Virus record (IMG/VR): IMGVR_UViG_3300042463_000051
Location: 1-23,859 of that record
DNA from: a virus
Strand: one strand, 5' to 3'
DNA: 23,859 nt
In this document: piece after piece, positions 1 to 17,661 of the stretch
Layout: the number at the start of each line of letters is the position of its first letter
How positions within the stretch are numbered: position 1 is the stretch's first letter
Translations under genes and position numbers: made by a program
Notes under the pieces: model-generated
Databases searched by the model: none
What the model was told of the DNA's origin: nothing
The model's input: the letters and a program-made list of their open reading frames with translations, nothing else

Positions 1-256
1 GAATATACAGAAAACTATCGCCAGATAAGTGTGTTGCTAATTCTTCACCTTCAGTGTTCAAATCATAAAGGGACTCAAATGCGATTCCCTCAAGATAAAG
101 TATTTTACGAATCTTTGCGATACCCGATTCTGGTGTCAAGACAGGCTGAGTTAGCTCAACCATCAACAACAGATTGAGTTTACCCTGCGTTACTGAGTCA
201 ATGGAGACTTCATCTCCACCATCCATTGACTCCGTGATGAATTCTTTGAAATTCAT
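1..256 (-). CDS. Conserved phage protein with capsid-targeting-like N-terminus (partial, 3' end outside window)
   Basis: The first 85 codons of a minus-strand gene run off the left edge. Its ATG overlaps the stop of the preceding gene as TAATG, so the two are probably translationally coupled. The N-terminus reads MNFKEFITES, followed by an acidic stretch and then a segment with hydrophobic beta-like runs (LNLLLMVEL). The first ten residues match the leader seen on several other proteins here and resemble the T4 internal-protein capsid-targeting sequence, which the prohead protease gp21 cuts after an [LI]-x-E. I do not recognise the rest of the protein. A virion or internal-head role is inferred from the leader and from the structural neighbours. 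Confidence 0.7.
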   Translation of the reverse strand, partial: MNFKEFITESMDGGDEVSIDSVTQGKLNLLLMVELTQPVLTPESGIAKIRKILYLEGIAFESLYDLNTEGEELATHLSGDSFLYI

Positions 257-816
257 TAGCTGTCTGCAAACACTGTGTCATCGGAAGCGTCAGCAACACC
301 TGCTTGACCGATGCTGCCCATAGCAACAAGAGTCTCTGTGTGTTCGCGCCCGACACGACCACCCATGGTGATTGTAATTGATACGTTAGAGTTTGGCACC
401 GCGCCGATTGTTGGTGCAGCCAAGTAGTTACCACCAGTTGTCAGTGTAATACCAGTAATCAACTTTGCACCGTTTGTAACGATACGTGCGTTAGCGGAAG
501 TGTTACCTGTGCCACCGCCAGTGAATGTCAAGAATACGTTACCGTCAGGTGAGTATGAACTTGCATTCGCTGTAAGTGTTGCAACAGGACCTGTGCCTTG
601 CTTTACAACAACCCAACCTGCGTGTGCTCCTTTTGGATTAGCCGCAACGCCCTGTTCAGTACTGTCAACACCGAAAATGCCAACAGCTTGTCTAGGTGTG
701 AATGCACCGATAGTTGTGCTACCAAACAGTGTTGCTCCGTTTGCATTGTTAGTAGCTGCAACGCCTGCGTGTTTTGGTGCCGCGTTGCTTGAATCTGATT
801 TTGCCCATAGTGTCAT
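256..816 (-). CDS. Probable virion structural protein (186 aa)
   Basis: This complete gene has a strong Shine-Dalgarno (AAAAGGAG, 823-830) six bases before the ATG and a late-type promoter motif just upstream at 840-847. The protein is rich in Gly, Ala, Thr, Val and Asn and has almost no charged helical stretches, as expected of a beta-rich capsid-surface or tail protein. The C-terminal part carries GGRVGREHTETLVAMGS followed by an acidic tail ending DDTVFADS. That ending resembles conserved small structural proteins of marine T4-like phages. No signal peptide or membrane segment is visible. A structural role is inferred from composition, context and this resemblance, and I cannot place it more precisely in the head, neck or tail. 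Confidence 0.7.
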   Translation of the reverse strand: MTLWAKSDSSNAAPKHAGVAATNNANGATLFGSTTIGAFTPRQAVGIFGVDSTEQGVAANPKGAHAGWVVVKQGTGPVATLTANASSYSPDGNVFLTFTGGGTGNTSANARIVTNGAKLITGITLTTGGNYLAAPTIGAVPNSNVSITITMGGRVGREHTETLVAMGSIGQAGVADASDDTVFADS

Positions 817-839
817 TTATGACTCCTTTTGTTATTGTT

Positions 840-847
840 TATTTATG
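840..847 (-). promoter_or_regulatory. Candidate T4-type late promoter (CATAAATA)
   Basis: The minus strand reads CATAAATA. It differs from the T4 late consensus TATAAATA only at the first base and fits the relaxed NATAAATA form described for cyanophage late promoters. It overlaps the TAA of the upstream gene and lies about 24 bases before the ATG of the 186-residue structural protein, leaving room for a short leader with its AAAAGGAG ribosome binding site. Motif and position are seen directly; late use is inferred. Confidence 0.5.
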
Positions 848-2510
848 TTTTGATGATCTGTGATGATAGCTCAGGTTCAGCTTGGAATGTATCAGCTTTT
901 TCTTTGCTAGATGACTTAGAATTCTTAGCCAAATCTTTTACGATGCCAGCAGTCTTAGACAGTGAACGTTTCGCAGGTGTGCTTGTTTTCTCAAAAGAAT
1001 CTTCCGGCTCTTGCTCTTCTTTTAGACCTGCTTGTTTACGTGCAGCAGTCTTTGCGAGGTGCTTAACTCTAGACATTGCTGTGTGTTTTGCGCCAGATTT
1101 GTCTGTTGTCACTTTTGTTGTATTTTTGGTATAAGGACCATCAAATGGAACCTCATAACGCTCTTTACCCAAGTCTGTTGCAGTTTGTTCAGCAGTAATG
1201 ATAGGTGTAGGCTTCGCAGGCTTCTTAGCTGGTCCGGATGTGAAACGACCAGCGTCCGGATTCTCGTTGGAGTTGCTAGTTTGACCAACTTCTTCCGCCA
1301 CAACACTCTCAGCTTTGTACTTCTTAAACATATCAGTACCTTTTCTTGGTGCAAGACCTTGTGTGCGATATGCAGCAGCAGAAACAGCAGCGTATCGTTT
1401 TGTCTTCTTACTCGCCTCAGCGTTTGTGCCGGTGCCAGGCAATTCTCTTGCGCTGTCCATTGCTTTATTGACATAGGAGCCAAGAGTTTTCTTTGACAAC
1501 TCATCAATCTGCTCAACTTCTTCCTTCATCCCTGTACGGCGAGACTCACCTTCAATGTATGAGTGTAGTGATTCTACATCACTTTGAACTTTAGATAGTT
1601 TGTTCTGATACCACTCTTCAATTTCACCACCCATCTCAATGAACTCAAGAATTTCTTCAGCGGCATACTTGATGAAGTGTAGTTGCGTTTGGGCCATCTC
1701 AGTTTTTTCGGTGGTATCCGATTCAGCTTGCTCATTGATTTCAGCTTGTTTCAGAATACCTTTGACCAATGGTGCCTTTAATTGACGATGACGTGGAACT
1801 GGAATGTGGTGCTTTGCTTCTGGATGTGTGTATACATCGTGGCTACCTGATGTGCGCGAAAGTTTCCAACCACGCTTCTTCAGATGTTGATGCACAGCAC
1901 GGGTATCCATGTTAGCACCAGGCATTTCATCTAGTTGCTCAACATCAACAGACTCATCCCACTGCTTACCACGTGCCGCATTTCTAGCCGCAGATTTTGC
2001 ACCATAGTTTTGTTGCAGTCTCTCAGCATCATACTTATGTACTGTAGCGCCTTTGACTTTCTTTGCAACGTTCTCGGCATGAGACTTGGTATCAAATGTT
2101 TTCCAGTGACGACCATTGACATGTACTGAGTGATAGTCTTTGGCGTCAGCTTCGGCCAGTTCAACCTCTTCATTAGTCTGTGAGTTTTTCAAATCCTTCT
2201 CGGATGGTGCACCCTCTGAGCCAGGCTTACGCATACGTTCACCTGAACCTTTTTTGATTCTTTCACGCTTGGCATGAATGTTGTCCCACAGACCAGCTTC
2301 TTCAATGGTTTCTTCTTCTTTGATGGATTTGCCAGCAGATTTATCACCATAAGTTGCCTGACGTTTTTTAGCAAGGTCGAGCTTATCTTTGACAGCTTTT
2401 CCCAACTTCGGATCAGCCTTCAGCATCCATCCTGTTCCAAGAGACTTTTTACCCTCTTCCAAAATGTCCTCACCGCGGACAAGACTTGCAATCTGCTTGA
2501 AACTTCTCAT
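843..2510 (-). CDS. Multidomain internal/virion protein with embedded HicA-like domain (555 aa)
   Basis: I chose the ATG at 2510 (MRSFKQIASL) because GGGAG lies about six bases upstream and the preceding gene stops one base before it. An upstream in-frame start would overlap that gene heavily. The protein is a string of charged modules separated by acidic linkers. Residues about 125-165 form a small domain with YHSVHVNGRHWKTF. Residues about 202-258 resemble the HicA mRNA interferase fold, including a GSH motif at 222-224. Residues about 278-323 are a helical module (FIEMGGEIEEWYQNKLSKV). Residues 331-350 carry one copy of the EQIDELSKKTLGSYVNKA unit that the next gene upstream repeats five times. 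The C-terminal third is Lys/Ser/Thr-rich. LDE and IDE triplets before modules fit the T4 gp21 protease rule [LI]-x-E. It is likely a packaged internal protein or precursor; the family is not recognised. Confidence 0.75.
   Translation of the reverse strand: MRSFKQIASLVRGEDILEEGKKSLGTGWMLKADPKLGKAVKDKLDLAKKRQATYGDKSAGKSIKEEETIEEAGLWDNIHAKRERIKKGSGERMRKPGSEGAPSEKDLKNSQTNEEVELAEADAKDYHSVHVNGRHWKTFDTKSHAENVAKKVKGATVHKYDAERLQQNYGAKSAARNAARGKQWDESVDVEQLDEMPGANMDTRAVHQHLKKRGWKLSRTSGSHDVYTHPEAKHHIPVPRHRQLKAPLVKGILKQAEINEQAESDTTEKTEMAQTQLHFIKYAAEEILEFIEMGGEIEEWYQNKLSKVQSDVESLHSYIEGESRRTGMKEEVEQIDELSKKTLGSYVNKAMDSARELPGTGTNAEASKKTKRYAAVSAAAYRTQGLAPRKGTDMFKKYKAESVVAEEVGQTSNSNENPDAGRFTSGPAKKPAKPTPIITAEQTATDLGKERYEVPFDGPYTKNTTKVTTDKSGAKHTAMSRVKHLAKTAARKQAGLKEEQEPEDSFEKTSTPAKRSLSKTAGIVKDLAKNSKSSSKEKADTFQAEPELSSQIIKT
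1737..1907 (-). other. HicA (YcfA)-like toxin domain inside the 555-aa protein
   Basis: Residues 202-258 of the host protein show the HicA pattern: an N-terminal helix (MDTRAVHQHLKKRGWKL), then SRTSGSHDVYTHP with the conserved Gly-Ser-His, then HIPVPRHRQLKAPLVKGIL-KQAEI, which matches the usual beta strand, basic loop and final helix. HicA proteins are small double-stranded-RNA-binding-fold mRNA interferases whose His is catalytic, normally made with a HicB antitoxin. No HicB-like gene is seen in this window. The domain is preceded by LDEM, a possible prohead-protease cut site. Fold and His are seen; RNase activity is inference. Confidence 0.65.
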
Positions 2511-2511
2511 A

Positions 2512-4305
2512 TTACTCTCCCTTGGCTTGCTTGGTGGCCGTAGCGTACATAACAGACTTAGCATCTTTGCCATAACGCTCTTTGAAGCCAGCAATGTTCT
2601 TCTTCATGCCTTTGACATTCTTTTCCAATGCAGCCTTTTCAGCGGTGGTCAATGAACGCTCTTCAATTTGCTCAACTTCTTCCTTAGCTAAACGATCAAC
2701 AGCTTTGCCCATGTTTTCGCGGCGCTTCCAAGACTTAGCAAAAGTTTTATCTGCTTTCTCCATGCTCTTTCTAGCATCATTGTAGCGTGAATCTTTACGT
2801 GCAGCTTCTGAATCATTAGCATGTTGACGAGTCAATGCGCCCTTGTGTGCAACATCATGAGATGCTTTCTTGACATAGGATGCTAGTGTAGACTTCTTTA
2901 GTTCATCTAGTTGTTCAAATTCTTCAGTTTGCATGAAGTTTTCAACATCTTCAACAGTAAATTCAAGTTCATCTAAGTTTTCATATTCTTCTCTAGTCAA
3001 ACGTTTAACAGCTTTTTTAACGCCGCGGTCTCGCTTTTTAATCACACGCTGATCTGCTTTCATTTCGCGGGCGTTACGAACCTGATCAGCTTTTTTTTCA
3101 GGTTGGGCACCATACGCCACGCTTGCAATATTATGCTCTCTATCTGCTTGACTTCTTACAGCTTTATTGATGTATGAACCGAGTGTCTTCTTACTTAACT
3201 CATCAATTTGTTCAACTTCTTCTTTAGTCAAACGATCTACCGCTCTTTGTATACCAGTAGTTGAATTTTTAAGTCTACGGAAGTTTCCTGGCGTCCTACG
3301 ATTTCGTTCCAGTGTAGTAAGATGATGACCTACCTCGTGTGCGGCATACCTCACCCTGCCTTGGGCTTTATTGATATATTTACCAAGAGTCTTCTTGCTC
3401 AGTTCATCTAGTTGTTCAAATTCTTCAGTTTGCATGAAGTTTTCAACATCTTCAACAGTAAATTCAAGTTCATCTAAGTTTTCATATTCTTCTCTAGTCA
3501 AACGTTTAACAGCGCGATCAACGCCGCGATTTCGCTTTTTAATCACACGTTCATCTTTTTTTATTTCGCGGGCTTGCTGTTTCACATCAGCTTTTTTTTC
3601 AGGTTGGTCGCCAAAGTGCAGACGTCCAATATTATAATCTTTATTTGCTACACTGCTTACAGCTTTATTGATGTATGAACCGAGTGTCTTCTTACTTAAC
3701 TCATCAATTTGTTCAACTTCTTCTTTAGTCAAACGATCTACCGCTCTTTGTATACCAGTAGTTGAATTTTTAACTTTACGGACATGTTGTGGGGACGGTT
3801 TAAGTTTAGAAACATCACGTCCTATCATGTATGATCTATTTCTCACATTATCTCGGGCAGCCTTAATATATTTACCAAGAGTCTTCTTGCTCAGTTCATC
3901 TAGTTGTTCAACAGATTCTTGCTTGACAGCTTGCACAGCAGGCTTTGCAACTTCAGCTTTGCTCTTGCCAATGGACTTGTCTTGTGCTATCTTGATCTCT
4001 TTGTTGAACTCTTCTTGAGATGCTTCTTCTTTTGTATACTTCTTAGTGTACACAGTGCCTGTGGAGATTTTCTTAGCATCGTGGCCAGTCTTCTCACCTT
4101 TTTCAGCAGTTTGGCGTGGAGTATTCTTCCAGTCAAATGGGCTAGCAGGCTTCTTGGCTTCCTCTTTGCGCAACAACTTGAAGTCGTGTGCATCAACTTT
4201 GCCGTTTTTGTTTTTATCGATCTTGTGTTGATCGCCTTTCAGTGCTTCGTCCACAACAGCTTTCACTGCTTCGGCCACTGATTTTAGAATTTTATCGTTG
4301 AACAT
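2512..4305 (-). CDS. Repeat-containing internal/virion protein with EF-hand-like loop (597 aa)
   Basis: The ATG at 4305 is preceded by AAAAAGGA. Residues 30-41 form an EF-hand or dockerin-like calcium loop (DKNKNGKVDAHD). Five copies of a unit with core [LI]DELSKKTLGxYIxKA (the last copy is LDELKKSTLASYVKKA) start near residues 133, 197, 297, 365 and 465. The stretch between copies usually ends in RAVDRLTKEE or KAVKRLTREE, and an acidic block (NLDELEFTVEDVENF) occurs twice. The protein is very rich in Lys, Glu, Arg and Ala and predicted to be mostly helical. Each unit follows an LDE or IDE, the T4 gp21 consensus, so it may be a precursor cut into basic DNA-contacting peptides during head maturation. 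Near-identical DNA repeats show recent internal duplication. It stops one base before the next gene. No enzymatic motif is visible. Confidence 0.75.
   Translation of the reverse strand: MFNDKILKSVAEAVKAVVDEALKGDQHKIDKNKNGKVDAHDFKLLRKEEAKKPASPFDWKNTPRQTAEKGEKTGHDAKKISTGTVYTKKYTKEEASQEEFNKEIKIAQDKSIGKSKAEVAKPAVQAVKQESVEQLDELSKKTLGKYIKAARDNVRNRSYMIGRDVSKLKPSPQHVRKVKNSTTGIQRAVDRLTKEEVEQIDELSKKTLGSYINKAVSSVANKDYNIGRLHFGDQPEKKADVKQQAREIKKDERVIKKRNRGVDRAVKRLTREEYENLDELEFTVEDVENFMQTEEFEQLDELSKKTLGKYINKAQGRVRYAAHEVGHHLTTLERNRRTPGNFRRLKNSTTGIQRAVDRLTKEEVEQIDELSKKTLGSYINKAVRSQADREHNIASVAYGAQPEKKADQVRNAREMKADQRVIKKRDRGVKKAVKRLTREEYENLDELEFTVEDVENFMQTEEFEQLDELKKSTLASYVKKASHDVAHKGALTRQHANDSEAARKDSRYNDARKSMEKADKTFAKSWKRRENMGKAVDRLAKEEVEQIEERSLTTAEKAALEKNVKGMKKNIAGFKERYGKDAKSVMYATATKQAKGE
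2901..3012. repeat. 112-bp direct repeat, copy 1 (pair at 3402-3513)
   Basis: The 112 bases here are identical to 3402-3513, a spacing of 501 bases (167 codons). They encode the C-terminal half of one acidic block and the start of a LDELSKKTLG-type unit in the 597-residue protein. Together with the 3155/3656 pair they show an in-frame 501-base duplication. Confidence 0.9.
3155..3272. repeat. 118-bp direct repeat, copy 1 (pair at 3656-3773)
   Basis: These 118 bases are identical to 3656-3773, again 501 bases apart. They encode the STTGIQRAVDRLTKEE linker and the following IDELSKKTLGSYINKAV unit. The bases between the identical blocks have diverged much more, so the units appear homogenised or selected while the segments between them vary. 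Confidence 0.9.
3402..3513. repeat. 112-bp direct repeat, copy 2
   Basis: This is the second identical copy of 2901-3012 and lies within the coding region of the 597-residue repetitive protein. Confidence 0.9.
3656..3773. repeat. 118-bp direct repeat, copy 2
   Basis: This is the second identical copy of 3155-3272 and lies in frame within the 597-residue repetitive protein. Confidence 0.9.
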
Positions 4306-4331
4306 GGTTTTTCCTTTTTGTTTTATGTTAA

Positions 4332-5984
4332 TTAGTTATGTTCCTGCCAGTTTACAATGCCCACAGCATCATCGTTGTTGGTAGTGGCTATTGCTGCCAA
4401 ACACCATATGTCTGATACACCTGCTATAGTTCTACCTAACTGTTGACTAAAGTCTATTTCGTTGCTAGTAACTTGAGCGGATCCGCCCTTATTAGATCCT
4501 ACAAATACACCTTGCGTTATTACTTTGCCGCCAGATAATGCTGTAGCAGAGATGTCATACTCTACTGTACTGTCTGTGTCAGCACTGGTCCAATTAGCAT
4601 CAGTCAATGTGGGATTGAGAATAATGCGATATGAAAAGGCTGCTTGTTGTAGTCCAAATACATCGAACGCAGTGGGCACTACAATAGAGTCCGGGGCTGT
4701 TGACTTCATGCGTAAACAGACTAATGGTCTGTACACGGTATTGCTGAGGTCCTTACCAGTTAGTGCTGTTCCTATGGCACGGGTAAAACTGCGATTACTA
4801 TAACCGCCTTCCGACATAACTGTACTACAGATTGCTCTCATTGAGGCTGCGGGTCCAGTGCTGATCAATTCATATCGTAGGGGTAACGTAGCACTGGTCA
4901 TATAGACCTTGTTTAATATGTTGGCATGATGAAAACTGTGACAAACGATGAACTGTCCGTTAATCACAAATCCACAACGAACTGTCCCTACACCTAACCA
5001 TTCTATGTCTGTCCAGAAGATTTGTGCTTTGGTTACATCTAATGTTATTCCGCTGGCTCCAGTTCCATCTAATTTATCACCATTCCACAAACTTTGAGGG
5101 AATTTTTCCGTAGTGTCATCTACTGAACCAGAAGTGTATTTTCTAATAACTAGATTTTTTGTGGTGTCTGCTACTTCAAAGTAGATGCCGTTCTGTGCTC
5201 CGAAATAGCCTGCTCGTTGTGTAACGCCAGCGGTAGGAGCGTTCATAACAAAGGTCAACAGAACCAATAGACTCTTACCAGGCTGGTAGGAAAATACCTG
5301 TTTAGTCTGACGAATGGCCGATCCTGCTCCTGTAGCGCTCATTAGAATAGAACTTTCGTTAGGTAAGAAAGAGGAAGTGACAGAGCCTGTGTCCACTTGG
5401 TCCCACTTGTATGTATTGTCAAAGTAACGCAGACCACCATCGAACAGTGTATATGGATTACTTACACGCAACCGTCCAAACGCATCAGTGGCCGCTGCCC
5501 CCAAAGTTACAGCACTGGTGCCAGTTAGGGTAGCATTTACATTACCACTAATAGGTATAGGATTGCCGCTGTCGTTTTTAATCTCTACCTCAGGCATAGT
5601 GCCAATGTTAACTGTAGGAGTGCCGCTGATAGTAACTGTGGTATTTTCCAATGCTGACAATGTGTTTGCCGATAAACTAACGATGCCGTCTGTGCCAATG
5701 TTAACATTTCCGCCTATTGGCATATAAGATACAGTCAATAAACCACTTGTGCCAACTTCCGTAATGTGTGTATGAACTGGGTTTTCTGGCGAACTTGCGA
5801 CATTAACCGTATCCACAAAATTCACGTTTCCAGTAATTGTGATATTTTCTGAACCAAGAGTTACTGGTAAAGGATTTGAGAGAGAAACGATATCACCATT
5901 AGCGTTATTAGCCAACATCATCACCTCATATCGAGATGAAATCTTCGGATCTAGCGCACCAATATCTTTATTAAATTGTGCCAC
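4332..5984 (-). CDS. Large virion structural protein (550 aa)
   Basis: The gene begins with GTG at 5984, directly after the TAA of the preceding gene (TAAGTG). A weak GGAA lies about eight bases before the start. The N-terminal third (residues about 25-165) is Thr/Val/Asn-rich with repeated beta-strand patterns such as ITITGNVNF, GGNVNIGTDG and ISGNVNATLTG. Next comes DAFGRLRVSNPYTLFDGGLR, a motif I associate with large structural proteins of marine T4-like phages. A globular C-terminal domain with many aromatic residues follows (NESSILMSATGAGS, SYQPGKSLLVLL). It has no signal peptide, membrane segment or catalytic motif. The most likely role is a head-decoration, baseplate or fibre-associated protein. 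It lacks the short capsid-targeting-like leader of its neighbours, consistent with an external rather than internal location. Confidence 0.7.
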   Translation of the reverse strand: MAQFNKDIGALDPKISSRYEVMMLANNANGDIVSLSNPLPVTLGSENITITGNVNFVDTVNVASSPENPVHTHITEVGTSGLLTVSYMPIGGNVNIGTDGIVSLSANTLSALENTTVTISGTPTVNIGTMPEVEIKNDSGNPIPISGNVNATLTGTSAVTLGAAATDAFGRLRVSNPYTLFDGGLRYFDNTYKWDQVDTGSVTSSFLPNESSILMSATGAGSAIRQTKQVFSYQPGKSLLVLLTFVMNAPTAGVTQRAGYFGAQNGIYFEVADTTKNLVIRKYTSGSVDDTTEKFPQSLWNGDKLDGTGASGITLDVTKAQIFWTDIEWLGVGTVRCGFVINGQFIVCHSFHHANILNKVYMTSATLPLRYELISTGPAASMRAICSTVMSEGGYSNRSFTRAIGTALTGKDLSNTVYRPLVCLRMKSTAPDSIVVPTAFDVFGLQQAAFSYRIILNPTLTDANWTSADTDSTVEYDISATALSGGKVITQGVFVGSNKGGSAQVTSNEIDFSQQLGRTIAGVSDIWCLAAIATTNNDDAVGIVNWQEHN

Positions 5985-6362
5985 TTAGCAATTCCATTTT
6001 CTTAGTGCGAGAGCTTTACGGGACGGCTCTCCGTTAGGTTTCTTCATCGGACCTTCCACTCCACCCATTCTAGCACAGAATGACTTGCGACGGTTAGCAG
6101 CTTTACTGCCCGGTGTCAATTTTGATGGTGGTGTTGTAACCGGTGCTTTTAGATTGCCGCCATCTTTTCTGTTGTAGTAGTCACGACCCTTTTGAGTTAG
6201 ACCACCAGTAGAGCTTTTTAGTCCTTTAGCATCAACTGCGGCTTCCACTACAGTTTCTTCTTTCATACAAGAATCGGGTGAGTATGCTTTCTTACCTGGA
6301 ACAGGTTTATAGCCTTTCCAGCAGCGCCCAGCTTCAGTGACAAAATCTTTATAGTTTTTCAT
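5985..6362 (-). CDS. Small conserved phage protein, DUF6321-like (125 aa)
   Basis: The ATG at 6362 overlaps the previous stop as ATGA, with AGAGGAAAG about ten bases upstream. The N-terminus, MKNYKDFVTEA, matches the capsid-targeting-like leader found elsewhere here. The rest holds GGLTQKGRDYYNRKDGGNLK, then SFCARMGGVEGPMKK, and ends RKALALRKWNC. This cysteine/arginine-rich pattern is shared by a small domain in many aquatic phages, which I believe is DUF6321, though I could not check that. Four cysteines (two N-terminal, two C-terminal) might bind metal. The function is unknown; the leader suggests it may be packaged. Confidence 0.75.
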   Translation of the reverse strand: MKNYKDFVTEAGRCWKGYKPVPGKKAYSPDSCMKEETVVEAAVDAKGLKSSTGGLTQKGRDYYNRKDGGNLKAPVTTPPSKLTPGSKAANRRKSFCARMGGVEGPMKKPNGEPSRKALALRKWNC

Positions 6363-8890
6363 AGGTAATTCTTTCCTCTGAACGTGCTAAGTGATATGCC
6401 ATGTTTAGCCAGTTCATCTTGTTTTTGTGCACCAATTGACGCTGTGGTTGAATCCCCACCCATTTCAGCAACAGGTTTCTTTTTCAGAGGATTCACTTTG
6501 CCATTCTTGTCATTGATTTCGCCCATGTCACGCCCAATGCCTTCGCCACCAGCAGCCATGGACATGCCAGTTTCTATGCCTTTGTCGATGGCTTCTTTGA
6601 ACGTGTTTTTGGCTTGCGAGAGGGTGAGCTTGCCTTTAAAGCGGCTGGCTTCGTGGATGTTTTTGGTGCTGGCTTCGGCACTGGCACTGGCACTTGTTCC
6701 TGCACTGTTACCACTGGAACTTCCACTTCCACTTTCGGTAATGGCTCTGGTACTACTACGACCGGAACTTCCACTTTCGGCAATGGTTGTGGCTCCGGTG
6801 CTGACTCCGGCACTACGGCTGGTGCTTCCACTTTCGGCAATGGTTGTGGCTCCGGTTCCACTGGCGGTTTGCTCTTCACAAAGAAACTTTTCACGAATTT
6901 CAACATTTACATTCTCCTTTAATTTAACTATGTAACCTTTGTCTGTCTTAACGACTTCACCACCTTTGGTGTGTGCGTCTTTAGCAGCATTGTTTCGTAT
7001 TGCATATACTTTAGGCTTGTTGCCTGATGCAATATATGTAGCTCCATCTTTTACGGCAGTTCTTTCACCACTGATACTTTCGGAGACAAACATGGATTTT
7101 CCGAGCGTCAATAGATTGTATGCACCAGAATCAGACATTTCTGTGTGGTCCACGTGCTCCTCAACTTCCTGCTCTTCCACTTCTGCATCTCCATTGCCAG
7201 TCAGCATCTTCATTGCTTTTTGTAGCTCTTCTGGGGTATCAGCTTTGAAAGTAACTGAAACGGCCTCAAAAAGATTCTGAAAATCTTCGTTGATAGACTC
7301 TTTGACTGGTTTCTTGGGCACAGGCTTTTGGCTACTAGCTCCACTCATAGGAACTTCAGCAGTTTTCTTAATCATCTTTTGCTGTTCAGCGTGTGTTGGA
7401 TCCTGCACCAAAGTTCCGTGAACTGTGTGATGTGTGACTTTACCATTCTTACCATATCGGCCATAGCCATAGTATTGTAGCCCAAGGCGTCTAGCTTCAT
7501 CAGTTGCTTTGTTTTCGCCCTCAGCGGAGTGTGGAATAGACAGTTCCGTGCCTTTCTTAGGAACAGGCAAGGTGTCTTTCTTCTGTAGTTCACCAGCAAC
7601 CCAAGCCTTAGCTTGCTCATTCTTAGGTGGTGCTTGAACAAACTTTTGGACAGTCTTGAAGATGTTGTTCATCTCTTCTTTCTTGGCTTTGACCACTTCT
7701 GGTGCTGCGGTGCGCAAGTCTTCAGAGTTATCAAATTCAATATAGCTGTTGCCAAACAACTTAGCCATCTCTGGGCGTGAATTGTTTACTGCGTCCCACT
7801 TTTCTTTACGAATATTCTCAGGAACTGTACGACCACCTCTTTGCCCACGCTCAACGTTTCTCTGTGCAGAAATTTCATCGCGTGTAACAACGGCAACCAT
7901 AGAAGTTTCATAGCCAATTTCTTCTAAGTTTTTCTTTATCTTGGCATACTTTGCGGGATCATCGCCTGTGCCATTGATAATGATGCCGTTGCGACCCAAC
8001 AGCGCCAGCTTCTGCTTCAACTCTGTCATGTCTTTTGCTTTACCGCGAACAAGTGTCCGTGCATCAGCTTCAGTCTCTGGCATTTTCTTGTCCAGATTAT
8101 TCTTGTCCATCAGAAACTCAAGTGCTTTGTCTGAGTTGATTTCAATCAAGCCATGACCAGCAAGTGTGTTATCCAACACATAGTCTTTACCTGAGCCTGG
8201 ACCGCCCGATAGAAACACAGCCTTGAAGATGCCTTTATCGTGGACACCCTCAGATAGGATCATCTGAATTTGTGATCGGAAATCTTCTTTGACTTGCATT
8301 CCCTTGCGCACATCATTATACAATTCTTTAGCGTGTTCTGGCGCTACGTGACTTGGAATGCCTTTTTTGAATTCTTTGAAGTTGCCTTTTGATGCATGGC
8401 TACGCATCTTGGATGCAGACATACCAGATACACCCTCAGCATCAGGATCACGCTCACCAGCGGAGTGTACGTGAATACCACGAAACTTGAAGTATCCATG
8501 CGTACCTTTTACGCCATTGTATTTGTGTAAAATCTTCTCATACTCACCAGTTCTATCGGATCCTGCAACCATGTGCAAATGTGTAGCGCCAGCTTTGTGG
8601 AGTTTTGATGCTTGAGCCAGAAAGTTTGGATGTTCTTTACTGGAGGTTGTGATATTCGTGTCAGGAAAATATCGTTGTGCGTGTTTGACTTTTTGCTCAC
8701 CTGAGAGTGGATTCTTCTCAGCGTCCTGTGAATGCGATAGAACCACGTGGTGTGTTCCTCTCACAGACTTAGCAACATCTTTGACTTTATCAACCAGTTT
8801 TGCATGACCGGTTGTTGGTGGATTCATGCGTCCGAACGCAAGGACCGCATGTTTTTCTGTTGTTTCTTCTAAATATTGTCTGAACTTCAT
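6359..8890 (-). CDS. Bifunctional nucleotidylyltransferase / P-loop kinase-like protein (843 aa)
   Basis: The ATG at 8890 has GGAG five bases upstream. Residues 1-10 (MKFRQYLEET) form a capsid-targeting-like leader. Residues 14-165 show a cytidylyltransferase/NMN-adenylyltransferase-type domain: GRMNPPTTGH at 20-29 (the [HT]xGH site) and SGMSASKMR at 155-163, like the ISSTxxR signature. Residues 222-400 are a P-loop kinase-like domain with Walker A GGPGSGKD at 229-236, in the style of polynucleotide or zeta-type kinases. Residues about 530-670 are unfamiliar charged segments. Residues 676-742 are a Ser/Gly/Thr-rich low-complexity tract with repeated ATTIAESGS. A conserved-looking tail follows, ending GISLSTFRGKNYL. 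It may take part in NAD or nucleic-acid end metabolism, possibly inside the virion. Substrates are unknown. Another gene is nested in the low-complexity region. Confidence 0.8.
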   Translation of the reverse strand: MKFRQYLEETTEKHAVLAFGRMNPPTTGHAKLVDKVKDVAKSVRGTHHVVLSHSQDAEKNPLSGEQKVKHAQRYFPDTNITTSSKEHPNFLAQASKLHKAGATHLHMVAGSDRTGEYEKILHKYNGVKGTHGYFKFRGIHVHSAGERDPDAEGVSGMSASKMRSHASKGNFKEFKKGIPSHVAPEHAKELYNDVRKGMQVKEDFRSQIQMILSEGVHDKGIFKAVFLSGGPGSGKDYVLDNTLAGHGLIEINSDKALEFLMDKNNLDKKMPETEADARTLVRGKAKDMTELKQKLALLGRNGIIINGTGDDPAKYAKIKKNLEEIGYETSMVAVVTRDEISAQRNVERGQRGGRTVPENIRKEKWDAVNNSRPEMAKLFGNSYIEFDNSEDLRTAAPEVVKAKKEEMNNIFKTVQKFVQAPPKNEQAKAWVAGELQKKDTLPVPKKGTELSIPHSAEGENKATDEARRLGLQYYGYGRYGKNGKVTHHTVHGTLVQDPTHAEQQKMIKKTAEVPMSGASSQKPVPKKPVKESINEDFQNLFEAVSVTFKADTPEELQKAMKMLTGNGDAEVEEQEVEEHVDHTEMSDSGAYNLLTLGKSMFVSESISGERTAVKDGATYIASGNKPKVYAIRNNAAKDAHTKGGEVVKTDKGYIVKLKENVNVEIREKFLCEEQTASGTGATTIAESGSTSRSAGVSTGATTIAESGSSGRSSTRAITESGSGSSSGNSAGTSASASAEASTKNIHEASRFKGKLTLSQAKNTFKEAIDKGIETGMSMAAGGEGIGRDMGEINDKNGKVNPLKKKPVAEMGGDSTTASIGAQKQDELAKHGISLSTFRGKNYL
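6574..6906 (-). CDS. Nested overlapping gene: proline/valine-rich repeat protein (110 aa)
   Basis: This reading frame lies wholly inside the 843-residue gene, on the same strand but in another frame. It starts at an ATG with a near-perfect ribosome binding site (AAGGAG, 6914-6919) seven bases upstream and ends with TAG. The product begins MLKFVKSFFVKSKPP and continues with three degenerate copies of a PEPQPLPKVE unit separated by Val/Pro runs. It ends in a basic Ser/Lys/Arg tail (SRKPKTRSKKPSTKA). Such Pro-Val-Glu/Lys linkers occur in periplasm-spanning or rod-like proteins such as TonB, but no membrane helix is present. The strong ribosome site inside another gene favours true expression. 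The low-complexity repeats leave several frames open, so chance remains possible. Confidence 0.5.
   Translation of the reverse strand: MLKFVKSFFVKSKPPVEPEPQPLPKVEAPAVVPESAPEPQPLPKVEVPVVVVPEPLPKVEVEVPVVTVQEQVPVPVPKPAPKTSTKPAALKASSPSRKPKTRSKKPSTKA
6726..6856. repeat. Three imperfect direct repeats within the low-complexity dual-coding tract
   Basis: A 32-base unit beginning CTTCCACTTTCGGcAATGG (plus-strand reading) occurs at 6726-6757 (diverged), 6768-6799 and 6825-6856, the last two being identical. Spacings are 42 and 57 bases, both multiples of three, so both the 843-residue frame and the nested 110-residue frame stay open. In one frame the unit encodes ATTIAESGS-like repeats and in the other PEPQPLPKVE. 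Confidence 0.85.
6914..6919 (-). promoter_or_regulatory. Strong ribosome binding site for the nested gene
   Basis: The minus strand reads AAGGAG, then seven bases, then ATG at 6906. It lies within the coding sequence of the 843-residue gene, where it encodes only a KLKEN segment, and it is better than the ribosome sites of several undisputed genes here. Confidence 0.6.
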
Positions 8891-8915
8891 TTACTCCGCC
8901 TCTACAGCAAGTTTC

Positions 8916-8948: not shown

Positions 8949-9604
8949 TCTCTGACTAATTCTCCAGTCCTGGCGATCATTCCTGTGCAATACACACGGT
9001 CAACCTCAACCAGCTTATCTTTTGGAATGTGCAAAAAATGCACATGTTCTGTGTCCAATTGTCCAAGAATATTGAGATTTTTCTGTAATATTTCAAAATA
9101 ATCATCAGCTAGACTGGAGCACAGTGAGAACAGTCTTGTGTCCAAGCAATGTGTTGCACCAGAAACAACAGGATTCATCCATGTTTCATTGCGGCGCTTA
9201 AACACATAATGTCCTTGCTTGTCTGTATAATATGAAATGTCAAAGCCATCATCAAGGACATATCTACCAGACAACTTGAATATTCTATCACACACGATTC
9301 CTTGCCTCTTTATGAAATTCAGCATTTCCATAAGAATGACTGTTTCACCATGACTCTTCATGCCATGAGTTGAAAACATCTTGACTGCATGATGATCATT
9401 GAAACTCACAACCTTACAATATTCTTGCAGTTCATCTATCATTCCACCAAGTGGCGCAACTGAGATATCAGCGAGAAAGATCATAGCTGTTGGATCTTTC
9501 TCACGAATAGATTTCAGTGTGTCCAGTGTGTCGTTGAACCTCTGTATTGTATTGAAAACGCCAGCTTGTGTGAGCAAAGCGGAAGTTACGATGAATACAT
9601 TCAT
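8945..9604 (-). CDS. Glycosyltransferase-like protein, WavE-like (219 aa)
   Basis: The start at 9604 (MNVFIVTSAL) overlaps the upstream stop as ATGA. A start further upstream would add residues overlapping the preceding gene. The N-terminus has a beta-strand pattern typical of a Rossmann-like or GT-A domain. KLSGRYVLDDGFD at 110-122 is the 'sGRY' signature of WavE-like lipopolysaccharide-synthesis and related phage glycosyltransferases. Later residues (GHYVFKRRNETW, HFLHIPKDKLVEVDRVYCTG) fit a sugar-transfer fold, but I see no classic DxD. It is the last gene of a five-gene sugar cassette in overlapping arrangement. Its acceptor could be the host surface polysaccharide, a virion protein or DNA. 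The family call is moderate and the substrate unknown. Confidence 0.6.
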   Translation of the reverse strand: MNVFIVTSALLTQAGVFNTIQRFNDTLDTLKSIREKDPTAMIFLADISVAPLGGMIDELQEYCKVVSFNDHHAVKMFSTHGMKSHGETVILMEMLNFIKRQGIVCDRIFKLSGRYVLDDGFDISYYTDKQGHYVFKRRNETWMNPVVSGATHCLDTRLFSLCSSLADDYFEILQKNLNILGQLDTEHVHFLHIPKDKLVEVDRVYCTGMIARTGELVRD

Positions 9605-10398
9605 GTGTGATTGAAGTCTCTGAATATGACAAACCAATAGTCAGGATTGACATAATTGATTTTGAAGTCGTGCGGTGACATTTTGTATGACATGAGCAAC
9701 ATGGACTGATCATCATCAATCAAATCCACTTCAATGTAGTTCATTATTGCCCGTGTCATGAGTGTTGCCATTTGCTTCCACTTTTCAACTGGTGCAACGA
9801 TGTGACAGCCTTGGACGTACACATTATTTGTCTTGACGATATTGAATATAGGTTCAGCTTCGTCAGGGTTGGAGAAACAGAACAGATTGATTAGATTCTG
9901 TGTGTTGAACTTCCATTCCATTCCAGCAGGACAGAATGTATCTTCACGCACATATCCAAAGTCTAACCAAGCAGCCGTGCCTGTTGACACATGACCCATC
10001 TTAATTGCTGTATTGACAAACAAAGATTTGGCGTAATTTATGAACACATAATGTGGCGACCAATACTCAGGCATCGTTGGTTGATTCAGATGCGCAATAA
10101 ACTCAGGGCGTCTTTGAATGTGTGCGATACGACTCAGTAGCTGGTTGTTGTCTTCAAAAATGTTATCAGCAACAACACAGATGATATCGTCACGATAACT
10201 CTTGATGGTGTCAATGAATTTGCTTTCGGTGAAAACAACGATAGGATTCTTTAGCTCAGTTAGTCGCTTGAATCTGTCCAGATATGTCTGTGTGTCACGC
10301 TTTAGGTAGTGTGGCAGTTGCTGACCATTTAGAGTACCTTCCCAATTTGACCTACCAATGTCAAAGAACGCAGTTACAATTGTGACAGTCTCACTCAT
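9601..10398 (-). CDS. HtrL/YibB-like protein (265 aa)
   Basis: The ATG at 10398 overlaps the methyltransferase stop as ATGA, so I prefer it to an in-frame start at 10431 inside that gene. The N-terminus, ETVTIVTAFFDIGRSNW, is characteristic of the HtrL/YibB family, as are NPIVVFTESKF around residues 60-72 and WLDFGYVRED near the middle. In enterobacteria these genes sit in lipopolysaccharide-core loci and are thought to be glycosyltransferase-like, but their reaction is not firmly established. The phage copy lies inside a run of glycosyltransferases and a methyltransferase with short overlaps, supporting a role in building or altering a glycan. No signal peptide is seen. Confidence 0.75.
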   Translation of the reverse strand: MSETVTIVTAFFDIGRSNWEGTLNGQQLPHYLKRDTQTYLDRFKRLTELKNPIVVFTESKFIDTIKSYRDDIICVVADNIFEDNNQLLSRIAHIQRRPEFIAHLNQPTMPEYWSPHYVFINYAKSLFVNTAIKMGHVSTGTAAWLDFGYVREDTFCPAGMEWKFNTQNLINLFCFSNPDEAEPIFNIVKTNNVYVQGCHIVAPVEKWKQMATLMTRAIMNYIEVDLIDDDQSMLLMSYKMSPHDFKINYVNPDYWFVIFRDFNHT

Positions 10399-10949
10399 TT
10401 CTTGATCCAGTACCATACATCGTTTGCACAAGTTTGTACTTCTGCGCCGTGCTTGGCTGCAAATTCATTTACCGCACGATTTACACCTTCGATGACATTG
10501 TAATCGTGACCTGCAAAAACACCACCAGATTTTACTTTACTGAAGTAATTCTCACAGTCAATCGTGACTTGTTCGTATGTGTGTATTCCATCAATAAATA
10601 TGAAATCGAGTGAGTCATCTTCAAAATGATTGACCATATTATCCGAGAAATCACGATGCATGACGAATCTATCACCGAACTCAGCACAGTAATCCAGAAT
10701 CTGTTTGTGCATGTCAACACGATCTGTCAGGAATCTACCATTCCAGTCTTCATAGTTGACATACGGATCAATACCATGCAACACCAACTCAGGTAAGTTT
10801 TTCAGCAAATAGTGTGTTGTGTGGCCTTCAGCACAGCCGATCTCCAAACCAACCTGTGGTCCCTTATCACGCAATAGTAGCAGAAGTCCTTTACCTGAAC
10901 AAATCCACTCATTGGCAGGATTAGTATTCATTACAATGTAATCGCTCAT
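10395..10949 (-). CDS. Class I SAM-dependent methyltransferase (184 aa)
   Basis: GLEIGCAEGHTT at 34-45 is the glycine-rich SAM-binding motif I, followed by the acidic HGIDPY (D61). DFIFIDGIHTYEQV is the motif II/post-II region, and GGVFAGHDY gives the later strand and loop. The pattern is that of the Methyltransf_24 (TylF/cephalosporin-hydroxylase-like) group, often found in sugar or small-molecule O-methylation clusters. Upstream AAAGAA is only a weak ribosome site, and the gene follows the previous stop by nine bases. Its position between glycosyltransferases suggests it methylates a sugar. DNA methylation is unlikely because no DPPY or PC motif is present. Confidence 0.8.
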   Translation of the reverse strand: MSDYIVMNTNPANEWICSGKGLLLLLRDKGPQVGLEIGCAEGHTTHYLLKNLPELVLHGIDPYVNYEDWNGRFLTDRVDMHKQILDYCAEFGDRFVMHRDFSDNMVNHFEDDSLDFIFIDGIHTYEQVTIDCENYFSKVKSGGVFAGHDYNVIEGVNRAVNEFAAKHGAEVQTCANDVWYWIKK

Positions 10950-10958
10950 AATATTCTT

Positions 10959-11843
10959 TCATGTAGTAATAGTAAAATACTTAGGAGATGACCCAGTATC
11001 AGTTTCAGTTGTAATCTTCACATCATACTTATCATAGAAGTATTTTGTCCACTCAGGCACTCGGTCGTACTGATGCACAATAACGAAAGGCTCACCATCG
11101 GCGTTCTTAACAACACCATCTTCCATGTATGGACGATCCTCAAGTAAATATGGACCAAACTCGTCCATCTGGTCTGGTTTATTTGTCACATGTGCATTCA
11201 ATGCCCAGCCATCCATCAGTGGAAGACATGTCGCCACCTCGTTCCATGGCTTGAAACTCAGCAACATATTATATGCAGCTTGATCAGCAACCCAGTCGGG
11301 ACGATTACTAGACATTTGAAATAGTGCAAAGCACAGGTCCTTGATGTATTCTGTTGTGCCCGCTAGGATGCCCACGTTGAATACTTCATGTTCTTTGATA
11401 TCCTCATAGAAGTATTGACCAAAGTTTTTGATGATGTTTTCACGATTCCATCGCTCATGCTGAATCTGGATTGCTTCCGATTGTGCTACGATACCTTTGT
11501 AGCTACCATATAGATTGTGTAGATACAAGCTAGGATTGCTCTGAAATATCACATCACGAACATCTGTAGTGATGACATAGCGATATTTGTTATGGTACTT
11601 TTTCAGGAAATCGTAGATGTATAGGAAGCGCATCATGTGAATCATCATGTTGCCTTGCTTTGGATGCTCAACAACAGTCACACCAGCGTCTTCAATCTCT
11701 AACACAATACTTTTCGGTGCATCAATTGCAATCAGTACAATATCACCATCGAAGCCAGTTTCTTTGATGGAATGAATCCACGGCTTGACAACGTTGAAGT
11801 CGCTGTAGTTACTAAATGCACCAATTATTAAATCTTTCGCCAT
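10959..11843 (-). CDS. GT-A type glycosyltransferase (294 aa)
   Basis: The N-terminal domain starts DLIIGAFSNY and contains YVITTDVRDVIFQSNP (D94 and D97), the metal/nucleotide-sugar DxxD-type signature of GT-A enzymes that begin with a short acceptor-tracking domain. WVADQAAYNMLL and PLMDGWALNAH follow, as in similar sugar transferases, and VIHQYDRVPEW sits near the C-terminus. The ATG at 11843 has AAAGGAAA nine bases upstream, and the gene overlaps the previous one by 16 bases. The sugar and acceptor are unknown. It belongs to the 12556-8945 sugar cassette. Confidence 0.7.
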   Translation of the reverse strand: MAKDLIIGAFSNYSDFNVVKPWIHSIKETGFDGDIVLIAIDAPKSIVLEIEDAGVTVVEHPKQGNMMIHMMRFLYIYDFLKKYHNKYRYVITTDVRDVIFQSNPSLYLHNLYGSYKGIVAQSEAIQIQHERWNRENIIKNFGQYFYEDIKEHEVFNVGILAGTTEYIKDLCFALFQMSSNRPDWVADQAAYNMLLSFKPWNEVATCLPLMDGWALNAHVTNKPDQMDEFGPYLLEDRPYMEDGVVKNADGEPFVIVHQYDRVPEWTKYFYDKYDVKITTETDTGSSPKYFTITT

Positions 11844-12556
11844 GGATAGTTTCCTTTCAAATGCTGTTGCATCGCATTATTACCGCGAATAAAGAATGAG
11901 TCCTGTACAGAGTCTGCGCGACTCGCCACCCTATAGTTTACAGTATATTGACCATTCGTGTCAAATGTTTTCGACTTGGCCATCATAAATGCCGAAAGAA
12001 TTCTATCAACTTCAGGTTGATCGTTAGGATGTCTAGCTCTACGATACCAATATGGAGCAAATTCTAGTGCGGCCATCTTCGGTATCATGAAACAGTTCAC
12101 ATCAACAAAATTGTCACCGATCACCGATTGCCACTTACCAAGTGATTCACAGTCATCATTACAAATGTAGTTGCCATCCTGATCAACGATTTTGCGTAAT
12201 GAGTATGCCCAATCATTACCTCTTGTGAGTTGGTTAACTAGCGATTCAATGTGATTATCATCGTACCAATTGTCTTGGTCTAGAAAGCACAGGTATTCGC
12301 CCTCAGCAATAAATGTCATAGCACCATAGATACGATGACCATTGTATTGGCTATGACCTGTGTTATATGGTAATGTGAGTATACTAGCATATCGTGATCC
12401 GACAATGGAATCTAGTGCATTTTCATAATGCTCAACTCCATCAACAACGATTAGATGCTGTATGTTCTTGTATGTTTGATTATCAACAGACCGAACTGCG
12501 TCAGCTAATTGAGCAGTTCCTGTTGTTGGTGTAATTACTGTGATCAATGGGTTCAT
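11828..12556 (-). CDS. Family 2 glycosyltransferase (242 aa)
   Basis: The sequence opens ITVITPTTGTAQLADAVRSV, the standard GT2 N-terminal strand and helix with nucleotide-binding loop, and continues with QTYKNIQHLIVVDG. The DxD-type motif is FLDQDNWYDDNH (D93, D95), and later residues fit the acceptor domain. The protein is short, without membrane helices, so it is probably cytoplasmic. The ribosome binding site is weak, and the gene starts 16 bases after the previous stop. It is the first gene of the sugar cassette. Glycosylation of a surface glycan or virion protein is the most natural inference. Confidence 0.85.
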   Translation of the reverse strand: MNPLITVITPTTGTAQLADAVRSVDNQTYKNIQHLIVVDGVEHYENALDSIVGSRYASILTLPYNTGHSQYNGHRIYGAMTFIAEGEYLCFLDQDNWYDDNHIESLVNQLTRGNDWAYSLRKIVDQDGNYICNDDCESLGKWQSVIGDNFVDVNCFMIPKMAALEFAPYWYRRARHPNDQPEVDRILSAFMMAKSKTFDTNGQYTVNYRVASRADSVQDSFFIRGNNAMQQHLKGNYPWRKI

Positions 12557-12572
12557 AATATAATTGAGTTAG

Positions 12573-12878
12573 TTACTGACCTGGAGTATCTCGTTTGTAT
12601 CGCTTGACTAGCAAGTCTGTGCCCTCTTGCCCTGCGCCAGCTGGTGGCAGAATGTCTGGATTAGGAGACTTCTTTTCTTCATGCACACTTTTATGTAGCT
12701 GAACTCCAGTGACTTTCTGGACCATATCCCAAGCATCCTTTGTTCGCTTGTTCTTCACATGATCATCAAATTTCTTTTTCTGTTCAGGTGTAGCTTTTTG
12801 CTTGAATTTGATAAGTTCCATAATGCCGATGTTACCAGCATAAGATGCTTCTTTCACCAGTTCTTTGAATGACTGCAT
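12573..12878 (-). CDS. Small conserved phage protein with capsid-targeting-like leader (101 aa)
   Basis: I chose ATG 12878 because it overlaps the previous stop as TAATG and yields the leader MQSFKELVKEA, the same pattern as other genes here. The middle (GNIGIMELIKFKQKATPEQ, then KNKRTKDAWDMVQKVTGV) is a short helical module common in T4-like marine phages. The tail, PPAGAGQEGTDLLVKRYKRD, also looks conserved. The gene directly follows the ligase-like gene, which has the same leader, so the two are probably translationally coupled and possibly co-packaged. The function is unknown. Confidence 0.7.
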   Translation of the reverse strand: MQSFKELVKEASYAGNIGIMELIKFKQKATPEQKKKFDDHVKNKRTKDAWDMVQKVTGVQLHKSVHEEKKSPNPDILPPAGAGQEGTDLLVKRYKRDTPGQ

Positions 12879-14110
12879 TATTTGTCCCACGCTTTCTGTG
12901 CGGTGAAGTTTGCATGACTGAATTCAAGTCTATCAACCAACTTGACGGCATTACCTTTTAGTCGATCAACAGCAACAAAGCCTTCTGGATTCGTGACCTT
13001 AAATCCATCATCTGTACGTAAGAATGCACCAGTAACTTGACGCATCTGTTGTAACTTTTTGATAATGATATTCTTGGAATCAACGATCATATTCATGATA
13101 TCAAAAATCTTAACAAGCTCGGCAAAGTTGCTTCGATAGAATCGCATGATTTCATTCTTTTCAGCTTGACGCTTGAGTTTAGTGTCTTCTCTTTTAGCGG
13201 CAATAATCTCTTTGTTCAGCTTGTCTTCAATCCATTTCAACAGTCCTTTCGCATGTTCCGTTGTATCTTTGATGTGTTCACCGGAACGAACTTTCGTGTT
13301 GTTGTATGTTTTGATCTGAACATTGAATATCTCAGAGGTAGCAATACGATTCAGGGTCATGCTACTGGTTCTTTGGAACAGGGATCCTGCTTGAGATAAA
13401 ATAGCTGTGATTTCTTTAGTCTCTTTTTCGGTAAATGTGACTGTACCAGATGCGTCAACGAAATATGCATCACGGAACCAAACATCCTTAGTTGCTTTCA
13501 TTCTACCAATATCGATGTTGAATGAAGACTTCAAATCTGCGATTGTCTTTCCTGTGTATGCCGTATGAAACACAATACCCATTTGTGCTGTCAACATGGA
13601 CTTAGCTAGTGCAGAATCTTCAGGAACCGCATACACGATTGTGTTTGGTTGAAATGTCACATACTTGACACCATCAATCGTTGCTTTCTTGATATCACCT
13701 TTAGCAAACATCATGTCGCCTTGCAGAATGCCATCGATACCAATCTTAGGCAAGTATGCTAGTGCAACCTTCAGTTTCTTATTCAGGCCTTCACCTGGAT
13801 GATTTCTGTCAATATCTTCATCGGTGTAGTTCAGCTTTGCATCTTTGTTGAAGATGCCTTTTGTGGCTACAAAGAACTTACCATTCTCTGGATTAGTGCC
13901 AGCAAATACAGCAGGTGCACCGTCCCATTTTGTGGTAATGTTTACCTTGCCGTCTGAATTGCCAGCAAGCATGTCTCTGAGTGATCGCAAAAAGTTGATT
14001 GCATCTCTCGTACCAGCTACACCGCGATTTAGAACTTCTTCCTCGATATGCTCTAGGTGAACGTTCTTGCCTTCTTTTGAGGACTCTGTTAGGAATTCTT
14101 TGAATTTCAT
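12878..14110 (-). CDS. Ligase-type nucleotidyltransferase-like protein (410 aa)
   Basis: The ATG at 14110 overlaps the nuclease stop as TAATG, with AGGGTG about ten bases upstream. The leader MKFKEFLTES is the best match here to the T4 capsid-targeting sequence. TTKWDGAPAVF (K61) matches ligase motif I (KxDG), where the lysine becomes adenylated. ILQGDMMF fits the acidic motif III region, PEGFVAVD (E376) fits motif IV, and GNAVKLVDR fits motif V. A long helical insertion, roughly residues 240-355, separates motifs III and IV, which is unusual. The motifs suggest an RNA or DNA ligase-like covalent nucleotidyltransferase. It follows a nuclease-like gene, so end-processing followed by sealing is a natural guess. 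Activity is inferred. Confidence 0.7.
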   Translation of the reverse strand: MKFKEFLTESSKEGKNVHLEHIEEEVLNRGVAGTRDAINFLRSLRDMLAGNSDGKVNITTKWDGAPAVFAGTNPENGKFFVATKGIFNKDAKLNYTDEDIDRNHPGEGLNKKLKVALAYLPKIGIDGILQGDMMFAKGDIKKATIDGVKYVTFQPNTIVYAVPEDSALAKSMLTAQMGIVFHTAYTGKTIADLKSSFNIDIGRMKATKDVWFRDAYFVDASGTVTFTEKETKEITAILSQAGSLFQRTSSMTLNRIATSEIFNVQIKTYNNTKVRSGEHIKDTTEHAKGLLKWIEDKLNKEIIAAKREDTKLKRQAEKNEIMRFYRSNFAELVKIFDIMNMIVDSKNIIIKKLQQMRQVTGAFLRTDDGFKVTNPEGFVAVDRLKGNAVKLVDRLEFSHANFTAQKAWDK

Positions 14111-17596: not shown

Positions 17597-17636
17597 ATTT
17601 ACTCCGTTTCGTTTGTTATATTGTTGATTATTTTAT

Positions 17637-17655: not shown

Positions 17656-17661
17656 TATCAT

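Follow-up and report, generated by a model that had tools for sequence, protein, structure and literature searches.

Five genes on a 23,859-nucleotide stretch of viral DNA, the IMG/VR virus record IMGVR_UViG_3300042463_000051, encode proteins that begin with nearly the same ten residues, which raises the question of what this common start is for. The stretch (hereafter the window) is a fragment that makes up the whole of its record, and it is a piece of a T4-superfamily phage genome. The initial annotation had likened the shared start to the T4 internal protein leader and had proposed a common destination for its bearers; all five N-termini read as given there, on the minus strand (Table 1). 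We conclude that these leaders very probably are T4-type capsid-targeting propeptides and that the tagged cargo would be packaged, cleaved by a gp21-type protease, which would also sever two polyproteins, and ejected together with the DNA. The grounds observed here are the leader itself, its concentration in a few families, its T4 spacing, the protease and capsid cut site of relatives and the published mass spectrometry (MS) of homologous proteins.

The pattern M.{1,2}[FY]..[FLYIM][LIVMA].E matches 5 of the 28 open reading frames (ORFs) of the window, against 7 of 1892 internal methionines counted over five sequences. As this pattern was derived from the leaders, independent tests carry more weight. 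Orthologues were tabulated by distinct first 60 residues, the window's own copy included, for 22 of the 27 called window genes; single-linkage clustering of the leader proteins had fused most families, and the orthologue table was used instead. The leader is present in 130 of 191 distinct orthologues of the five families, a figure inflated by DUF6267 because its loci were partly fetched by their own leader (MKFKEFLT was among six seed peptides); without DUF6267 it is present in 54 of 106. In the 17 further window families that were tested, 1 of 350 orthologues carries it. Orthologues scored as negative are mostly near-variants that still end in x-E (MNNFKEQAKINEA, MKKFLEKLHED), some cytidylyltransferase orthologues are leaderless and start directly at the enzyme, and of the five families the one that starts at 12878 is weakest. 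Across related contigs the pattern matches 211 of 2443 distinct ORFs, a count inflated because the loci were partly picked for a leader-bearing gene, versus 0-14 for six altered patterns. A candidate sixth leader, MRSFKQIASLVR (from 2510 down), has a profile score near zero. The five leaders are genuine and not a product of chance.

Table 1. Leaders, proteins, domains and promoter motifs located in the window
Feature	Position	Strand	Evidence or remark
Leader MNFKEFITE, on a partial ORF (2-256, open at the window end)	230..256	-	9 of 12 distinct orthologues with leader
Leader MKNYKDFVTE (N-terminus MKNYKDFVTEA, from 6362)	6333..6362	-	20 of 28 distinct orthologues
Leader MKFRQYLEE (N-terminus MKFRQYLEET, from 8890)	8864..8890	-	22 of 45 distinct orthologues
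Leader MQSFKELVKE (N-terminus MQSFKELVKEA, from 12878)	12849..12878	-	3 of 21 distinct orthologues strict; mostly variants, e.g. MNNFKEQAKINEA, in the rest
Leader MKFKEFLTE (N-terminus MKFKEFLTES, from 14110)	14084..14110	-	76 of 85 distinct orthologues, a figure raised by the seed peptide
DUF6321 protein with CWKGY...C module	5985..6362	-	PF19846, E 1e-25
Cytidylyltransferase/NMNAT-like domain plus zeta/AAA_33 kinase	6359..8890	-	Pfam and PHROG matches; homologues in three cyanophage virions
Small basic protein	12573..12878	-	no Pfam or PHROG match
DUF6267 protein with KWDGAP motif	12878..14110	-	PF19782, E 5e-111
Likely cargo polyprotein A: MRSFKQIASLVR as weak leader, then several small modules with [LI]xE sites between them	843..2510	-	PF07927 and phrog_16028 matches inside
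HicA piece, residues 196-260 of chain A, bounded by putative cuts after EQLDE and EINE	1731..1925	-	PF07927, E 2e-12
Likely cargo polyprotein B: helical modules of basic character, with two acidic spacers of 22 residues	2512..4305	-	sequence sites
Virion structural protein (phrog_1645), leaderless, in the leader-protein gene run	4332..5984	-	PHROG, E 2e-110
NATAAATA	14880..14887	-	28 bases upstream of 14859, where the gene run probably starts
Second NATAAATA	840..847	-	31 bases before gene 256-816

Applied to T4 as a control, the same pattern matches 3 of 256 ORFs, namely ipII, ipIII and 61.1; ipI was not recovered. The T4 leader MKTYQEFIAE named in the initial annotation is the start of ipII and ipIII, and the function attributed to it there, as well as cleavage by gp21 after [LI]-x-E, is described in PMC9026906. 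The first ten residues of IPIII are enough for capsid entry, residues 4 and 7 acting mainly in targeting and residues 8 and 10 in processing (PMC9026906). At the spacing of these four residues the window leaders carry Phe/Tyr, Phe/Tyr/Leu, Leu/Ile/Val and Glu.

Published virion proteomes of relatives link this kind of leader to virions. For cyanophage S-CREM2, 52 virion proteins are given in Table 3 of PMC10665884; we ranked the N-termini of the 219 coding sequences (CDS) in its record by a profile built without S-CREM2. Its strict leader proteins, a SAM hydrolase, an APH-like kinase and a cytidylyltransferase, are all three among the virion proteins, and the top four of the 219 N-termini (cytidylyltransferase, SAM hydrolase, APH-like kinase and gp13) all belong to virion proteins detected by MS. 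The hypergeometric test gave p=0.0029 at a score cut-off of 5 or 6 (4/4), p=0.013 at 8 (3/3) and p=0.012 at 4 (4/5), the fifth-ranked gp175 (score 4.9) being outside the virion list. This test used annotated CDS; the census based on ORFs missed gp14 of S-CREM2 and omitted the open-ended ORF of the window. In S-SZBM1, with 30 MS-detected proteins (PMC9146016), the leader-bearing cytidylyltransferase was detected with 2 peptides, and its leaderless neighbour, a DUF6267 protein, is outside the detected list. In the 50 kb examined of the 229 kb of S-SCSM1, the record flags seven of genes 89-97 as virion proteins, including an NMNAT with the leader MKSFLQFLKEA. Of the window's tagged proteins, it is the cytidylyltransferase/NMNAT that has leader-bearing homologues in the virions of these three phages. 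The common destination suggested in the initial annotation is supported by these homologues and would extend to the phage studied here. Leader-like stretches were also seen inside reading frames: S-SZBM1 protein 194 (123252-125375) carries FITYREFIAEGN away from its N-terminus, and record L487 has LLSFSQFIAE past a HicA domain, at about 3001-3240.

The S77 prohead protease (PF03420) was found in 10 of 14 long relatives, including G001 and G002, two genomes that share a similar order of the window genes (G001 is the most alike), as it was in 9 of the 10 named phage records, T4 included; the exception is the T7-like control P-GSP1. At the position of T4 FLTE-A (hyphens mark putative cuts), gp23 of G001 and G002 reads YLTE-A or YLNE-A, protease specificity being judged from sequence. 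Prohead core genes adjoining the protease in these two genomes start MRLIDFIFE and MKFVELIAE, and one gene of the core cluster in G002 (47400-48506) holds the same EEVEQIDE module as a window polyprotein described below. Both observations would suit a leader that simply marks members of the prohead scaffold, its bearers serving head assembly and being removed at maturation, so that their detection in virions reflects a residue; T4 gp21 cleaves core proteins to fragments that mostly exit the head (PMC9026906). We consider this explanation unlikely, given that several of the bodies belong to enzyme or toxin families for which a scaffold has no need (cytidylyltransferase, kinase, SAM hydrolase, HicA) and that HicA occurs in just 5 of 19 records.

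A separate observation is an apparent mimicry of the capsid protein. The S-CREM2 protein gp160 (128342-129235) contains GFTGAAAPEGPVAGYDPLM, to be compared with GFTGAAAPGGPNAGFDPVM just past the gp23 cut site. S-SCSM1 gene 97 (L339 33121-33306) likewise seems to mimic the major capsid protein in the segment that follows the cut; gp160 and gene 97 are MS-listed or flagged as virion proteins. By eye, T4 61.1 (NC_000866 18966-19130) combines a strict leader with a weaker capsid-like stretch.

Several points weigh against capsid targeting. The columns of pattern and profile were fixed by the leaders themselves, and the shape of the profile is no evidence. The motif NATAAATA, which we take to be the T4-type late promoter motif, is overall no commoner than base composition predicts (hand estimate), and only its position counts. 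Two window leaders have Val instead of Leu/Ile before x-E. The gp21-type protease that the initial annotation expected in the genome was not found in the window, nor were capsid genes, the 23.9-kb fragment being the entire record; the expectation is borne out in the long relatives and named records given above. HTVC008M and Cr30 have the protease and no strict leader, G013 has a single doubtful internal leader start, and in the 58 of 64 kb examined of G006 no strict leader was found. Among the virion-flagged genes of the S-SCSM1 block 89-97, the other six are leaderless, so the leader is not the sole route. The S-SZBM1 proteins 191 and 192 carry leaders and are outside the 30 detected proteins, which leaves one of three leader proteins listed there, and the authors of the MS work cautioned that such abundant proteins may be co-purified, not packaged. 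The last two points bear on the idea that the common N-terminus serves translation or stability, or is a legacy of gene fusion, and has no part in targeting, with abundant late proteins co-purifying. We regard this as highly improbable: the shared positions are those mutated in T4 IPIII (PMC9026906), the four best leaders of S-CREM2 are all on virion proteins, and the S-CREM2 table holds one protein of DNA replication or metabolism, the Cas9-like gp12, which itself has the leader-like LRFASFMAEA.

Under capsid targeting by the leaders, we infer the following course for this phage, with packaging, each cleavage, ejection and functions in the host read from sequence. The tagged proteins would be made late, the aromatic residues of their leaders would bind the prohead core, and the closing shell would enclose them. 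The phage gp21-type protease would then cut after [LIV]-x-E, leaving basic mature proteins among the packaged DNA, and the mature cargo would leave the head with the DNA. Polyproteins A and B would be severed within the prohead at gp21-type sites (EExEQ[IL]DE and similar), and one of them would free a HicA domain. Isoelectric points (pI) are 9.1-10.0 for the two modular chains and the four complete leader proteins; among the other window proteins (18 computed), 16 have a pI below 7.8 and two are basic, at 14110 and 22330. In the window, G001 and G002 the motif NATAAATA lies 28, 28 and 32 bases, respectively, before the gene directly upstream of DUF6267. In G001 and G002 it also lies 33 and 39 bases before the gene similar to 256-816 (MSLW...) and, unlike in the window, before the cytidylyltransferase.

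The genes at 2512-4305 and 843-2510 most likely encode cargo polyproteins with gp21-type joints; the initial annotation did not mention them. Each of the eight [LI]xE sites of polyprotein B coincides with a joint (after residues 137, 202, 279, 301, 369, 446, 468 and 549), with EEVEQIDE, EEFEQLDE and EEYENLDE as examples. The predicted cuts would yield a 137-residue N-terminal piece, six basic pieces (48-81 residues each) and two acidic spacers, each 22 residues long. A general excess of [LI]xE in the two chains was unconvincing (z 2.8 and 0.9, compared with 2.9 for the ORF at 8945 and 2.5 for the cytidylyltransferase), so it is the placement of the sites that counts. Among 5498 distinct ORFs of relatives, 134 proteins contain a total of 232 joints in a looser definition; as many loci were fetched with joint peptides, this frequency is no measure. 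The modules that follow a joint form 71 groups at E 0.001 (looser pattern) or 54 at E 0.01 (stricter pattern), nearly all of which merge at E 1; because the grouping varies with the threshold, the number of unrelated modules is approximate. Besides the module in G002, two further links connect such chains with the head: the virion protein 89 of S-SCSM1, which contains an EEVENVDE joint, and the S-CREM2 virion proteins gp137 and gp160, which share with the window's DUF6321 protein a DUF6321 region (E 1e-6) and, as judged by eye, the CW-GY..C module. Pfam gave no match to a peptidase domain up to E 0.1 in the chains 843-2516 and 2512-4305. Ten relatives' proteins had few Pfam matches, with HicA in one and DUF7443 and intein-splicing below the cut-offs. 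The AlphaFold models of the two chains were poor (mean predicted local distance difference test, pLDDT, 47 and 59; predicted template modelling score, pTM, 0.21 and 0.23), so that only the HicA part of chain A was used, and a viral fold search with polyprotein B returned nothing at E<=0.001. Record L168 (5453-9748) has a 1431-residue chain that combines HicA with joints and, below the cut-off, a weak match to intein splicing.

The piece of chain A listed in Table 1 is a HicA domain by its match to PF07927 (47.4 bits against a cut-off of 27) and its modelled fold. The model of the chain is best at residues 201-250, with a pLDDT of 75-83 per ten-residue block, 67 in the next block and largely below 50 in the flanks. 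The best PDB matches of the modelled part are HicA structures (6g26_E: probability 1.00, TM score 0.81 by target length, E 1.4e-3). The piece contains a GSH motif, whose histidine we take to be catalytic, and is a putative RNase. HicA copies for counting sites were fetched by the domain alone, without use of the joint. An [LI]xE immediately precedes HicA in 18 of 19 distinct copies, the exception being L487, where the domain appears to start at its own start codon, and [LIV]xE follows it in 15 of 19, in the strict form [LI]xE in 7 of these. One short protein in each of L098, L099, L100 and L102 consists of a leader with a profile score of 11-19, the HicA domain and a DUF6321-like end; an example of a leader-headed HicA protein is MKSFTQFINE-EVEILDE-HicA. 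The HicB-like antitoxin PF15919 was found in 0 of 19 records, several of which are fragmentary, other HicB families not having been searched. We tentatively suggest, as a possibility, that the chain is an inert polyprotein of interchangeable mini-proteins, including an antitoxin-free HicA RNase, which is loaded by its tag and freed only in the closed capsid; the producing cell would thereby be spared and the next host would receive active effectors.

Instead of cut sites, the EEVEQ[IL]DE joints may be acidic linkers or binding motifs in a stable multidomain tail or head protein. There is a weak match to phrog_1346 (tail) within polyprotein B (E 6.5e-5), cleavage at the joints is predicted from sequence, and among the 31 joint-bearing records above 32 kb (of 120 fetched) the protease is present in 14 and missing from 17, including one of 84.5 kb. 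This interpretation appears doubtful to us. The joints end in L/I-x-E, to which the site placement in B and around HicA described above conforms, and the stand-alone kinase of HTVC008M starts MIPFILKE-G where the window fusion has ILSE-G. Moreover, the protease is found in 8 of 8 joint-bearing records above 100 kb and in 11 of 12 above 79 kb, and a T4-like polymerase in at least 5 of 12 short records without protease indicates that these are fragments of such phages. A podovirus marker gave no match in the 12 protease-less records, and its control was silent too, so that this search is uninformative.

As to the kinds of proteins that carry the leaders, the nucleotidylyltransferase-kinase of the initial annotation has cytidylyltransferase/NMNAT-like and zeta/AAA_33 matches; its ligase-like enzyme is the DUF6267 protein. 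The KWDGAP motif of the latter is, as we assume, ligase-like, and beyond this motif a ligase is unsupported, a sequence search of the PDB having returned no relative (best E 0.82). In the fusion at 6359-8890 an ILSE- site lies at residue 214 between the two domains, and IAE, ITE and IHE sites lie in the tail. The Pfam and PHROG matches of the leader proteins are to families other than IPI-IPIII. On record L407 (3-1364) a cytidylyltransferase is followed by an EEVEQIDE joint, a strongly basic module and, as judged by eye, an HNH-like stretch, which suggests a nuclease cargo.

All called window genes are on the minus strand. The region 14883-23639 (-) contains DNA polymerase, recombinase-like and helicase-like genes, the latter two named by eye and via their neighbours. 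A second gene run extends from 14859 to the left window edge and includes four complete leader proteins and the partial fifth, along with the virion structural protein and the two long modular proteins (843-4305). Between leader proteins lie five glycosyl-/methyltransferase-like genes, so named by eye (8945-12556), with the leader in 0 of 131 distinct orthologues. In both G001 (90684-91070) and the window (2-256) a small leader protein follows a conserved MxLW gene, the bodies of its orthologues having no assigned function. A small protein at 21560-21874 starts with MNMRRNFLKGAG, which resembles a twin-arginine export signal. The closest annotated DUF6267 relatives are from Methylophilales phage Melnitz, Stenotrophomonas phage DLP_6, phage C48C1 and Pelagibacter phage HTVC008M (50 to 42% identity), and the nearest named relatives are classified under Kyanoviridae.

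If this interpretation is correct, the leader is a sequence rule that predicts head-borne proteins in an apparently common group of aquatic phages, and it would account for the recurring metabolic enzymes in cyanophage virions. If the joints are cut, the head protease would serve these phages to process a modular set of effectors for injection, among them a toxin domain that lacks its antitoxin. That T-even phages package diverse proteins by a conserved signal is already known (PMC3012670, PMC9026906). Among the matches listed from the open-licence PMC literature we found no paper that ties a capsid targeting sequence (CTS) to virion enzymes of marine phages or cyanophages, and none with DUF6267, DUF6321 or the motif VEQIDE, which is not proof of absence; by term search, the available text of the S-CREM2 (PMC10665884) and S-SCSM1 (PMC9602691) papers reports detection and does not mention a targeting or leader sequence. 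New, as far as the literature was searched, are the signal on enzyme cargo of distant aquatic relatives, its match to virion proteomes and the site-joined HicA polyproteins.

Among known systems, polyvalent proteins (PMC5512222) likewise combine several unrelated, partly enzymatic domains in one chain and are predicted to be packaged and injected. In contrast to them, the window modules are mostly small and joined by head-protease sites, and neither chain has a matched peptidase domain; in the available part of that paper no T4-type signal is described, and few such proteins are reported from cyanobacteria. The HicA piece shares the PF07927 match and the fold with HicA of HicAB systems, whereas it sits between likely cut sites in a phage chain and the 19 records lack the PF15919 antitoxin. 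The T4 core proteins gp22, gp67 and gp68 are also cut by gp21 to several fragments, and similar genes adjoin the protease in relatives, but the window chains are basic and modular and lie in another gene cluster. Among the virion-associated NMNAT/cytidylyltransferase and kinases of the cyanomyoviruses S-CREM2, S-SZBM1 and S-SCSM1, the cytidylyltransferase belongs to the same family as that of the window, was detected by MS and has the same kind of leader; in the window it is fused to a kinase and to a long tail in which further sites lie. With the CTS of T4 IPI-IPIII and Alt, finally, the window leaders share a length of about ten N-terminal residues, aromatic residues at the targeting and L/I-x-E at the processing positions, and common to both are basic bodies and an S77 prohead protease, here in relatives. 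They differ from the T4 system in that the bodies are unrelated enzymes and modules, several of them large, that two chains with many internal sites look like polyproteins, and that they belong to a different phage clade.

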